A DNA stretch of 45,909 nucleotides from the NCBI GenBank assembly GCA_021827665.1, contig JAKAUR010000025.1:1-45909 (forward strand), read 5' to 3'. The first letter of the stretch is position 1, and each line of letters starts with the position of its first letter. The DNA is from Microcaldota archaeon. GTDB taxonomy: Archaea > Micrarchaeota > Micrarchaeia > Micrarchaeales > Micrarchaeaceae. The position numbers and the translations under genes were made by a program. The notes below the pieces were generated by a model. That model did no database searches, was not told the origin of the DNA, and worked only from the letters and a program-made list of their open reading frames with translations. Of this stretch, positions 1 through 23,178 are shown in pieces.

Positions 1-226
1 ACGAATGAGACATTTCTATCGAATTTAAAAATTAGACTATAAATAAAGTAAAATTATTTTCCAGAATCAAATAAATTTTCTGTAGCAAAAGATATCTTTG
101 CTTATTTGATAGAGCATTATCACATGCACGCTGAAATATTTAGGCCTAAAAATTTACGCTATCTTTCTTCTTATTTTCCAAGTATTACATAAATCTTTGT
201 GGATGGGCATTAAACATTAAGCCATT

Positions 227-338
227 AGCCCTGAGAGGGAATTGAACCCTCAACCTCCTGTTATCTTGGTTCTTGATCAAACTTCTTTTCAAGAAGTCTA
301 CTTACAAGACAGGCGCTCTGCCATTGAGCTACCAGGGC
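227..338 (-). tRNA. tRNA-Thr (anticodon TGT) with a 40-nt archaeal intron
   Basis: The reverse complement folds as a full cloverleaf. The acceptor is GCCCTGG/TCAGGGC with a T discriminator, the D stem is GCTC/GAGC, the anticodon stem is CCTGT/ACAGG and the T stem is GAGGG/CCCTC. The loop reads CT-TGT-A, then a 40-nt intron, then A, so the intron sits between positions 37 and 38. Exon CTTG pairs with intron CAAG, leaving 3-nt bulges on each side (TAA and ATA). This is the bulge-helix-bulge shape cut by the archaeal splicing endonuclease. The intron has its own hairpin (ACTTCTT/AAGAAGT). Exons total 72 nt and CCA is not encoded. A TATA-like AATTTATAGG lies upstream near 370. The 226 bases beyond the gene are AT-rich and show no gene. 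Confidence 0.95.
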
Positions 339-20171: not shown

Positions 20172-20396
20172 CTATCGCCCGGCAGACTTGCTTGAAAGGT
20201 ACTCCTCATACTCCTTCAGCATTGCCTCTGCCCTTTTCCTCTTGAACTCCATGTAAGCGTCAACCTCATCCTTCCTGATCCTGCTGAGCATGTTTCCCTC
20301 CTTTATTACGATGTATTCCCCTTCAACCGGCTTCGAAAGCTCTTCCAGGAGCCTGTCGTTGTCGAAGTGCCTGTAGTACCAATGCCTTATCTTCAT
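20172..20396 (-). CDS. Small charged protein of unknown function
   Basis: 74 residues, Lys/Arg/Glu-rich. The middle (GEYIVIKEGNMLSRIRKDEV) looks like a small beta unit and the C-terminal 35 residues like one long charged helix. The start codon overlaps the stop of the preceding gene (ATGA), with GAGGTG seven bases upstream, so the two are translationally coupled. No family recognised. An in-frame start three codons earlier is possible but has no binding site. Confidence 0.65.
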   Translation of the reverse strand: MKIRHWYYRHFDNDRLLEELSKPVEGEYIVIKEGNMLSRIRKDEVDAYMEFKRKRAEAMLKEYEEYLSSKSAGR

Positions 20397-20731
20397 TTTG
20401 CGCACCTCTTGAAATTTATATAACTTACAAGGGTCCCGTAATCCTTAGAAACATTTTTTTCAATGTAACGTGCAACTTGCTCTGGCTCTTTTTCTCCATC
20501 AAACCTTGCCTTTACCATGAAGCCAATGGTTCCTTCAGTCGCATAAACCTCGAGTACGTCGGGAAGAGAAGCAAGATCGTTAGCAAGCATGTTTAGGTCC
20601 ATTCCTTCTTTGGGCTTTATGAGGAAGAATTTATGATAAATCTTGCCGTTCTTCCTAACAACAAAGAACTTCTTCGGATCCTTAATGCGCTGCTTCGCAG
20701 CGCTCCCGCTCTTGTTTTGTTTTTGACTCAT
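20393..20731 (-). CDS. RAM/Lrp ligand-domain-like small protein
   Basis: 112 residues. A basic N-terminus with RKNGKIYHKFFLIKPKEG leads to an alternating pattern, MLANDLASLPDVLEVYATEG then GFMVKARFDGEKEPEQVARYI and a last strand (YGTLVSYINFKR). That order resembles the ligand-binding (RAM) half of Lrp/AsnC regulators without a DNA-binding domain. Such stand-alone RAM proteins are known in archaea, but here the assignment is by eye only. The ATG is behind GGTGGGG. It overlaps the next gene by four bases and follows a 37-residue reading frame 28 bases upstream, forming a three-gene operon of small proteins. Confidence 0.6.
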   Translation of the reverse strand: MSQKQNKSGSAAKQRIKDPKKFFVVRKNGKIYHKFFLIKPKEGMDLNMLANDLASLPDVLEVYATEGTIGFMVKARFDGEKEPEQVARYIEKNVSKDYGTLVSYINFKRCAK

Positions 20732-21177: not shown

Positions 21178-22575
21178 ATGGTGGAAGCGCCAGGAAAGAT
21201 AAAAGAGGTCTTCGAAGAGCTCAAAATGTCTTATGGAGAGCATATAGAGCTTAAATTCCTTAACAAAAGATTCTGCATATTCGAAGCCACGAGCAAATGG
21301 GACAGCAAAAGGCAAAAGCCAGTAAAGATAACTCATTATATTGGTTGGATAACCGATAACGGGGTAGTAGTCCCTGCTAAGCCGAAGAACAGCGAGGCAA
21401 GGCTGAAGGCCCTGGAATTCGAGTATAACAAAATGCTCAAGCACCAAAAAGAGCTGGAGGAAAAGAGAAAAAGCGCTTCTGAAAGGCCCATGGAAGAGGC
21501 ATTCGGCAATGAGGACATTCTACTGCTCCAAGCGTTAAGCATGAATTCAAGGCTTCCGCACGCAAAGCTGTCAAAGATAACAGGTATACCGATACATGCG
21601 CTGGAATACAGGATATCAAGGCTCGAGAAGATTCTAAGCATCAAGTACACCCTCGAATTGAACATGAACAATCTTGGCTTCTCGGAGTACATGGTCCTTG
21701 CAAGGTTCATAAGCAGCAAGCCAAGCCACGAAGATGTGAAGAAAGCTTTATCCTCGTTTCCAAGAGTCCAACTTGCATTGGTAACCAAAGGAAATTACGA
21801 CCTGATCATATTCTACGAGGCCGAGAATAATACTATACTCTCTTTAGATTTGGACTCTATAAGAAATAGTTCGGCATTATCTAAGATAGATTCTGAATGG
21901 TACGTAACGCCTATCGCAACTGACTATGGCTTCGTGCCCTTGAGGCAGGAGTTTTTCGAAGTCCTTAAGGAAAAGGTCTGGCACAGAAAGAAGCACGGAG
22001 AAAAGCCTAACGCAAACAGCCTTATGCAGAGGGAATATGCTTTGCTTCGTGAATTAAACCAAGACAGTGCAAAAAGCTTTGCGTCAATAGAAAGAGGATA
22101 CAACCTGCCTGAAGGCAGCCCAAAAAGGGCTTACAGTGACCTATGCAACGAAGACGGAAAGAACATAATAATAAGACCGACATTATTGGCAACCTCATTA
22201 AACAAAAAGTATGACGGGATAATAATCGCAAATATAAATAATAAAGAAAAGTTCATAACGTCTAGAGACAATCACCGCAGATATATAATAAATGAGTCTG
22301 GCAGTGTAATTAGCAAATTCTCTTACATCTGCGACATGGAAACCCCTGACGGTATATTTTACTTATTCCCAGTATTGAAAGAGGACGATATGGAAAGAAT
22401 AGAACATGAACTTTCTAATACGATAAAAGGCGTAAAATTCGACTCTTTAATCGTTGAAAGCGCTATAATGGGCGACATCTGCTACAGAAAGTTTGACAAC
22501 CTATACAGTGACCAATACGCTAGCCTAGTTAAAAGGAAATCGATACCTGCGCAAACTAGAACACTATACTCCTAA
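21178..22575 (+). CDS. Lrp/AsnC-like transcriptional regulator with an extended C-terminus
   Basis: 465 residues. Residues about 112-160 form a Lrp/AsnC helix-turn-helix (ILLLQALSMNSRLPHAKLSK, then GIPIHALEYRISRLEK). After it comes a RAM-like ligand domain (FSEYMVLARF ... QLALVTKGNYDLIIFYEAE). In front is a roughly 110-residue section with a basic beta unit and a coiled coil. Behind is a second, partly degenerate HTH-like part and a C-terminal domain (ETPDGIFYLFPVLKE onward) whose last 80 codons are tandemly repeated downstream. Role: presumably DNA-binding regulator responding to a small molecule; the target is unknown. The ATG is preceded by an AT-rich promoter without a clear ribosome site. 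It is divergent from the small-protein operon. Confidence 0.75.
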   Translation: MVEAPGKIKEVFEELKMSYGEHIELKFLNKRFCIFEATSKWDSKRQKPVKITHYIGWITDNGVVVPAKPKNSEARLKALEFEYNKMLKHQKELEEKRKSASERPMEEAFGNEDILLLQALSMNSRLPHAKLSKITGIPIHALEYRISRLEKILSIKYTLELNMNNLGFSEYMVLARFISSKPSHEDVKKALSSFPRVQLALVTKGNYDLIIFYEAENNTILSLDLDSIRNSSALSKIDSEWYVTPIATDYGFVPLRQEFFEVLKEKVWHRKKHGEKPNANSLMQREYALLRELNQDSAKSFASIERGYNLPEGSPKRAYSDLCNEDGKNIIIRPTLLATSLNKKYDGIIIANINNKEKFITSRDNHRRYIINESGSVISKFSYICDMETPDGIFYLFPVLKEDDMERIEHELSNTIKGVKFDSLIVESAIMGDICYRKFDNLYSDQYASLVKRKSIPAQTRTLYS

Positions 22576-22752
22576 AGAAAATATTATTACAAAGAATAAT
22601 TAAAGAGAATACTTAACTCAAATTTATTATTTATCATCCGCCGTTTGCTCCTCCCATCATATTTTCACCCAATATTTTATACTTCACAGCAAAATGGAAT
22701 AGTCGCGTTTAAATATGTTTGCATATTTGCATGTTTAACAATGTAAAAGGCA
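22336..22752. repeat. Tandem duplication, unit 1
   Basis: This unit holds the last 80 codons of the AsnC-like gene plus about 175 bp of 3' flank. It matches 22772-23178. The coding parts are offset by 437 bp, the later flank by 428. Within it 22649-22700 is identical to 23077-23128 over 52 bp. Similarity fades after the shared TTTAAA near 22709. Confidence 0.85.
22634..22687 (-). CDS. Possible micro-ORF in duplicate unit 1
   Basis: A 17-codon frame from a GTG, reading VKYKILGENMMGGANGG then stop. The frame is preserved in unit 2 as a 24-residue version with an ATG. It could equally be chance within a conserved promoter or 3' region. Confidence 0.25.
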   Translation of the reverse strand: MKYKILGENMMGGANGG

Positions 22753-23012
22753 CAAAGCCAAGCATGCTTTTATGGAAAACCCCTGACGGAATCTTTTACC
22801 TTTTTCCAGTATTAAAAGAAGAAGATATGGAAAGAATAGAACATGAACTTTCTAATACGATAAAAGGCGTAAAATTTGACTCTTTAATAGTAGAAAGTAT
22901 AATTGTAGGCAACATCTGTTACAGAAAGTTCGACAACTTATATCGTGATCAATATGTTAGTCTTGTAAAAAGAAAATCAATACAAGTGCAAACTAGGATA
23001 ATATACACTTAA
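22731..23012 (+). pseudogene. Duplicated C-terminal fragment of the AsnC-like regulator
   Basis: About 93 codons. After 16 unrelated residues it matches the end of the upstream regulator from TPDGIFYLFPVLKE to the stop, with about 64 of 78 residues the same. It has lost the DNA-binding part. Many of the base differences are silent, and the frame has stayed open, so this could be a small expressed domain rather than dead DNA. A stretch of more than 50 bases in the middle is unchanged. Confidence 0.6.
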
Positions 23013-23178
23013 ACGCAAATTACGAATAGCAATAATAAAAAGAATACTCAAATCTTACTTATCATCCTCCTTTTGGTCCTCCCATCATATTTTCACCCAA
23101 TATTTTATACTTCACAGCAAAATGGAATGGTTGCATTTAAACAGGTTTCTGCTTTTTGGCGTATAATCATGTAAACGC
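22772..23178. repeat. Tandem duplication, unit 2
   Basis: Second copy of unit 1, beginning at the shared GGAAA-CCCCTGACGG. It runs through the stop at 23010-23012 and the 52-bp block at 23077-23128 to about 23178, just before the methylthiotransferase gene. Confidence 0.85.
23062..23136 (-). CDS. Possible 24-residue micro-protein in duplicate unit 2
   Basis: An ATG frame reading MQPFHFAVKYKILGEN then MMGGPKGG and a stop. Unit 1 keeps the same frame with MMGGANGG before the same TGA; the Gly-Gly pairs are kept even where the base changed (GGC to GGA). A GGTGA also precedes an internal ATG pair. The alternative is that the conserved block is a plus-strand promoter (AATATTTTATAC). Confidence 0.3.
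   Translation of the reverse strand: MQPFHFAVKYKILGENMMGGPKGG

Follow-up and report, generated by a model that had tools for sequence, protein, structure and literature searches.

Miniature genes convergent with tandem-Lrp regulators suggest an undescribed peptide-regulator system in Micrarchaeota

In the RRNPP systems, peptides are cut from secreted pro-peptides and the receptors are TPR proteins. In these systems and in the arbitrium pair AimR-AimP, receptor and peptide genes are adjacent and co-diversifying, and several paralogous pairs are found per genome. In the LCP/RopB system of Streptococcus and other Firmicutes, a 24-bp ORF encodes the mature 8-residue signal (PMC10518010). Regulators of the Lrp/AsnC type, such as LysM and LrpA, combine a wHTH with a RAM domain and have archaeal representatives. 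Their RAM domain is the ligand site, where amino acids or other small molecules bind; for several archaeal Lrps it has been predicted or shown that amino acids are not used (PMC2995911).

The window considered here is a stretch of 45,909 nucleotides from a Microcaldota archaeon (assembly GCA_021827665.1, contig JAKAUR010000025.1). It contains a tandem-Lrp ('AsnC-like') regulator gene followed, on the opposite strand, by what appear to be miniature peptide genes. Pairs of this kind resemble LCP/RopB in that an unannotated ORF of less than 30 bp, whose product is a leaderless peptide of about 8 aa in its mature form, adjoins the gene for a transcription-factor receptor of the cytosol (PMC10518010), and in that each receptor has a distinct peptide code. 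They differ in that RopB is a TPR-type RRNPP receptor whereas the putative receptor here is a tandem Lrp protein, in that LCP peptides are hydrophobic whereas those found here are hydrophilic and rich in Gly, Asp, Asn and Ser, and in their convergent arrangement, mini-ORF arrays and archaeal host. The best explanation by analogy is that the Micrarchaeota pairs work like LCP/RopB but are not members of that system. With RRNPP and arbitrium they share the adjacent, co-diversifying genes and the several paralogous pairs per genome, but neither a secreted pro-peptide nor a TPR receptor holds for them. The regulator shares the wHTH, the RAM domain as ligand site and an archaeal host with Lrp/AsnC proteins, but its single chain contains the wHTH-RAM unit twice, with a beta domain added at the N-terminus, and the known ligands of Lrp/AsnC proteins are amino acids or metabolites, not peptides.

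The regulator gene occupies positions 21178..22575 of the plus strand and encodes 465 aa. In its AlphaFold2 model (pLDDT 81), a predicted N-terminal beta domain (residues 1-67) is followed by wHTH1 (105-153), RAM1 (155-251), wHTH2 (284-323) and RAM2 (331-431). The succession of a wHTH and a RAM (ferredoxin-like) domain that marks Lrp/AsnC proteins was thus found in the model, and also in its fold matches. The best of these was NirDL, a double-Lrp protein (Z 16.7), with single Lrp/AsnC regulators next (Z 8-9), and a profile match to LrpA 1i1g was obtained at 1.7e-11. The NirDL/Ahb siroheme decarboxylases have the same double Lrp-like architecture, but they are enzymes of tetrapyrrole synthesis whose identity to the regulator in the fold alignment is only 13%, and we know of no association between them and mini-ORFs. 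The window protein stayed below the curated Lrp-family cut-offs (Pfam HTH_AsnC, 21.7 of 27 bits; NCBIfam LysM, 35.9 of 180, E 5.5e-9), and its paralogues pass HTH_24 or MarR. TPR repeats were not found in the putative receptor, the predicted fold being a tandem wHTH-RAM, and the N-terminal domain had no significant match in Pfam or the PDB. Upstream of the regulator, at 20393-20731 on the minus strand, lies a gene for a stand-alone RAM-like protein (112 aa, AsnC_trans_reg below cut-off) that is kept at this place in one related genome (G002, 90%) and found near another paralogue in a second (G005, 81%).

An earlier note on this DNA had reported that 52 bp behind the regulator gene recur without change, and this proved exact: 22649-22700 equals 23077-23128, and the identity cannot be extended by one base. 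The host genome (852 kb in 40 contigs, archaeal) holds exactly five copies of this block, each behind a member of one gene family that encodes tandem-Lrp proteins of about 450 aa. Three copies lie outside the window, one on contig C14 and two on C34. All follow paralogues of the window gene, and the encoded proteins share only 28-29% identity with the window regulator. Searching with the inner 24-mer of the block at up to 3 mismatches returned exactly these five places, and the reversed control pattern returned 0. The block also occurs behind homologous genes of related species. In all pairs of six units, compared within and between species, it was 84-98% identical, whereas the gap before it (41-77%) and even the coding part (67-83%) had diverged, so that it does not drift like its surroundings. 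A block profile located the element directly behind the 3' end of nearly all copies of the gene in the same genus, always on the opposite strand. Judged by these alignments, the 52-bp block is a conserved element, one of the two explanations that the earlier note had offered for it.

What that note had missed is the reading of the block on the minus strand, where it would comprise the leader and start of a mini-gene. Copy 1 (22649..22700) contains a leader with an operator-like sequence, a Shine-Dalgarno motif and the first codons of mini-ORF 1, ATGATGGGAGGAGCAAACGGCGGATGA (22634..22660), which reads MMGGANGG. The Shine-Dalgarno motif GGGTGA lies at 22665..22670, and GGTGA precedes most mini-ORFs. 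The most conserved leader stretch, TTCCATTTTGCTGTGAAGTATAAA (22676..22699), is an imperfect inverted repeat between this motif and a TATA box, TATTTAAA (22708..22715), which is itself preceded by purine-rich, BRE-like bases. In other genera the place of this leader stretch is taken by CATTCCA-TTT-TGGAATG. Further upstream, CTTTTACATTGTTAAACA (22732..22749; genus consensus TTTACnnnntTAnaCA) keeps a fixed distance before the TATA box in 28 copies of the genus. Copy 2 of the block (23077..23128) belongs to a second set of such features on the same strand: mini-ORF 2, ATGATGGGAGGACCAAAAGGAGGATGA (23062..23088), which reads MMGGPKGG, its GGGTGA (23093..23098), its TATA box TGTTTAAA (23136..23143) and its upstream element GTTTACATGATTATAC (23161..23176). 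Both copies therefore have the order upstream element (TTTAC-n-TTAnAC), TATA, TTCCATTTTGCTGTGAAGTATAAAATATT, GGGTGA and mini-ORF, and in the 28 same-genus elements the upstream element, a BRE-like AgAAA, the TATA box and the leader stand in fixed register. Block and TATA box together very probably supply the promoter, the leader and the start codons for a mini-gene convergent with the tandem-Lrp regulator. At four other loci (L050, L072, L094 and L124) a perfect inverted repeat, CATTCCA-TTT-TGGAATG or CATTCCA-GTT-TGGAATG, lies between TATA and start and is a candidate operator; a pattern search found no operator copies before regulator genes. We also considered a longer micro-ORF with a GTG start that runs through the Shine-Dalgarno motif (VKYKILGEN...), and dropped it because other genera keep only the Shine-Dalgarno-preceded ATG ORF.

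To count such ORFs we used a strict criterion, namely an SD-like motif a short way ahead of the start, no more than 12 codons and at least 30% Gly, within 270 nt behind the gene. An ORF of this kind was present on the convergent strand at 39/69 gene ends, compared with 0/69 on the sense strand, 0.45/69 in shuffled sequence and 14/2246 other windows. In a second set, gathered after the criterion had been fixed, the antisense strand carried one at 23/62 gene ends (sense 0, shuffled 0.9). With a TATA criterion instead (a TATA box plus an ORF of 4-25 codons rich in small or polar residues), the count was 80/130 convergent, 1 sense and 1.6 shuffled, the 130 gene ends coming from one order of Ca. 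Micrarchaeota, in which they represent two families. An ultrasmall ORF with a ribosome-binding site thus adjoined the regulator gene in all three counts. At the other 50/130 gene ends the automatic search returned none; by eye some of these have one, outside the count (e.g. MNGSY, MKGEH), and some have none. The mini-ORFs span 4-25 codons, mostly 5-12, have no hydrophobic segment, and showed neither a secretion signal nor cleavage sites. Behind 20 sister tandem-Lrp genes that lack the N-terminal domain (335-408 codons, same genomes) we found mini-ORFs in 0/20 cases, and the linkage is therefore confined, among the genes tested, to the subfamily with this domain. Matches to the gene family were present in 31/31 related genomes searched, mostly 2-10 divergent ones per genome; full-strength matches came only from two families of one order, those elsewhere in the phylum being distant and weak.

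Some loci depart from this pattern. At three (L035, L037 and L038) no mini-ORF was found behind the regulator; in its place the opposite strand there encodes a similar small protein (..YVSRNRIVFVSSPNGCPRINIAGETAKFRDDFSKGFKTSKGIAKLIF). At L045 (2371-2635, minus strand) the mini-ORF behind a regulator fragment is enlarged by internal repeats, MKGGTNGGKIIGGPHSGIVGGPHGG. Another family member is represented only by its N-terminal part, truncated by a contig end of the host genome (G000:C20 4134-4835, L082), and the genome therefore probably holds a fourth regulator.

Several observations point to translation of the mini-ORFs. Among the closest mini-ORF pairs, each used once, 35/68 single-base codon differences were synonymous, where 16.2 were expected (p = 8e-7). 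The excess persisted in non-Gly codons alone (17/30 against 4.9 expected), which answers the objection that the ORFs had been selected for Gly. In frame controls over all pairs, there was no excess in the +1 frame (51 vs 51.9) and little in the +2 frame (79 vs 62). The peptide MDGAY is written with different codons at two places (GAT GGT GCA TAC TAA and GAT GGA GCC TAT TAG), and indels remove or add whole codons in frame, as in MDPGKSGGD/MDPGKSGD and MNGGPNGGG/MNGGPGGANGGG. Mini-ORFs also occur in arrays, each preceded by an SD motif: five at L113 with a 45-nt period, at least four at L117 and three each at L115 and L047. L054 is likewise among the loci with a tandem array of 3-5 mini-ORFs behind one regulator. 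Stop codons are TAA in 87/113 mini-ORFs. On this evidence, a translated mini-gene very probably has its leader and start in the 52-bp block.

We next consider how the encoded peptides vary with the regulators. Over 77 pairs, peptide distance was correlated with RAM1 distance (Mantel rho 0.35, or 0.28 in a partial test that controls for all other domains), with RAM2 (0.24) and with HTH2 (0.22), and showed no correlation with the N-domain (0.01) or HTH1 (0.02). Related sequences are not independent, and relatedness inflates Mantel tests, but it should do so for all domains alike. The best windows, residues 221-245 and 341-365, lay above the permutation max-statistic (0.22), and window 221-245 exceeded the max-statistic of all 300 permutations. 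The covariation was limited to one family (f1; RAM1 0.39, with the N-domain also at 0.16 there), and the 24 sequences of family f2 showed none. Among 74 pairs of loci within one genome none shared a peptide, bar two that are one ORF seen from both gene ends. In alignment columns 200-250 of the regulator (RAM1), DNA identity of the window gene to the syntenic genes at L044 and L045 falls to 44-59%, compared with 68-93% in most other parts; this appears to be a hypervariable or recombined segment, and it coincides with the best peptide-covarying window. The last 25 columns of L044 are 83% identical to the L045 fragment and 68% to the L045 gene, which gives only a hint of cassette exchange between regulator and fragment in these two genomes (G002/G003).

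The strongest alternative makes the block a convergent antisense promoter. Control of the regulator would then come from the RNA made there, or from the passage of transcription through the 3' end of the regulator's gene, and the mini-ORF would do no more than mark or stabilise that RNA. The orientation is convergent in every case, and the stops of mini-gene and regulator lie a median 34 nt apart, so that the two transcripts must meet or overlap. Such control would not call for the synonymous excess, the in-frame indels and the SD-preceded arrays described above, nor for peptide variation that tracks the RAM domains. Nor did the RNA itself have recognisable features: the predicted transcripts showed no structure (mean fold z +0.37 over 83 transcripts), a search of Rfam gave no match near the gathering score, and terminator T-runs were in no excess over composition, although the stretch is 44% T. 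We consider antisense control unlikely.

It is also conceivable that the mini-ORFs are translated but the peptide itself is inert, translation serving to sense the supply of glycyl-tRNA or GGAGG serving to titrate ribosomes. The high Gly content fits this, as does the fact that Lrp proteins answer to amino acids. Gly codons are moreover biased to GGA in mini-ORFs (67% vs 30% in regulators), and because of this bias a nucleotide-level role of GGAGG is possible. Sensing or titration is nevertheless improbable: mini-ORFs with a single Gly are conserved (MDGAY twice, MNGSY/MEGSY, MKGEH), third-base synonymous changes away from GGA are tolerated, and there is nothing downstream to attenuate.

Could regulator and mini-gene instead form a selfish unit, either an addiction pair or the remnant of a transposon with the block as its end? 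The several divergent family matches in most genomes and the repeated tandem partial duplications would suit such a unit, and so would the N-terminal domain, which recalls some transposase N-termini, although it gave no significant Pfam or PDB match that would make it a transposase domain. The surroundings speak against mobility. The window locus is syntenic in G003 (L044) and G002 (L045), where the MtaB-like gene that follows shows 87% and 86% identity, respectively. Three further loci (L059, L060 and L061) are collinear at 85-93% DNA identity, and no relative was found on viral contigs. A mobile element is thus disfavoured by synteny and by the absence of viral relatives, and we regard the selfish unit as very improbable.

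The same syntenic loci bear on the history of the repeat. The tandem duplication that the earlier note had described was recovered as 22340-22576 versus 22777-23013 (83%) and 22627-22747 versus 23055-23175 (83%). Its further claims of mostly silent coding differences and of an unchanged coding run of more than 50 bases also held, with 26 synonymous and 14 non-synonymous differences over 77 codons and a run of 53 bp (22387..22439, plus strand, equal to 22824-22876). The second unit contains a C-terminal regulator fragment, the second half of RAM2, at 22764..23012 on the plus strand (ORF open from 22719). Compared with its parent its dN/dS is 0.08 at a dS of about 1.0 (77 codons), from which we conclude that the fragment is kept by purifying selection. 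Since the fragment and two blocks are present at the same place in G003 and G002, the duplication is old. At several loci the mini-gene and the regulator's C-terminal end were duplicated jointly, and purifying selection acts on most of the resulting fragments: dN/dS is 0.08 for the window fragment and 0.14-0.24 for seven more, with one at 0.46. The 53-bp run is found only in the window pair, the longest identical runs in the coding part of the syntenic pairs being 15-21 bp, and the coding parts of the two window units resemble one another more than they resemble their orthologues; for these reasons this run is likely the product of local gene conversion. The earlier note's choice between conversion and a conserved element was thus right on both counts, for different islands. 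That conversion alone made the 52-bp block identical, without any function, deserves almost no credence, for although the mutual closeness of the window coding parts would agree with it, the block is conserved across species and among paralogues with proteins only 28-29% identical; sequence comparison refutes this reading for the block and lets it stand for the coding island.

We therefore return to the pairing of peptide and regulator. The mini-gene product would be a leaderless peptide, mature as made and about 5-12 residues long (in the window MMGGANGG and MMGGPKGG), and would serve as the cognate intracellular ligand of the regulator. The RAM domains would bind it in the way that ordinary Lrp proteins bind amino acids. 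We infer this role from the linkage, the co-duplication with the RAM2 end, and the covariation with RAM1 and RAM2, and put it slightly above an even chance. The regulator may control the promoter of the peptide gene, either through the conserved inverted repeat that lies between TATA and start or through the TTTAC element upstream, and peptide binding at the RAM domains would change its DNA binding. Each locus would then be a self-contained feedback unit with its own peptide, tandem mini-ORF copies may raise the dose or broaden the repertoire, and the cassettes of C-terminal fragment and mini-gene could act as spare specificity modules. Towards this peptide-regulator explanation as a whole we lean by a small degree. 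Its main gap is the missing output gene: none is evident, the block motif being found nowhere else in the genome and not upstream of regulators. An oligopeptide-binding protein (PF00496) was found in 0/21 relatives (control positive in 11/14), an OPT transporter likewise in 0/21, and the BPD_transp_1 permease (PF00528) is absent in the genus, which argues against classical re-import. LCP import likewise works without a need for Opp (PMC10518010). A role of the peptide as a cell-to-cell signal appears doubtful.

No archaeal peptide-receptor regulatory pairs and no micrarchaeal Lrp expansions were described in the papers that our searches of an open-access library returned. Miniature genes that stand end to end with most copies of one regulator family suggest an undescribed archaeal peptide-regulator system. 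In its broadest form, which we advance tentatively and at somewhat less than even chances, this would be peptide-based regulation or cell-to-cell signalling with an origin separate from that of RRNPP, in which mini-genes encode mature Gly-rich oligopeptides read by tandem-Lrp RAM domains, with several channels per Micrarchaeota genome, arrays, and cassettes that swap specificity. Because the mini-ORFs fall below every annotation threshold, a large gene family has probably been invisible so far. Should the proposed role of the peptide be wrong, an association, hitherto undescribed, between mini-genes and one regulator family across the order would still remain. Should it be true, the Lrp fold can read peptides, and genes of 5-8 codons that carry promoters of their own can be common. 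Micrarchaeota genomes measure about 1 Mb; if the peptides are ligands, several loci in them are given over to separate peptide channels, which would bear on communication among these archaea or between them and their hosts.
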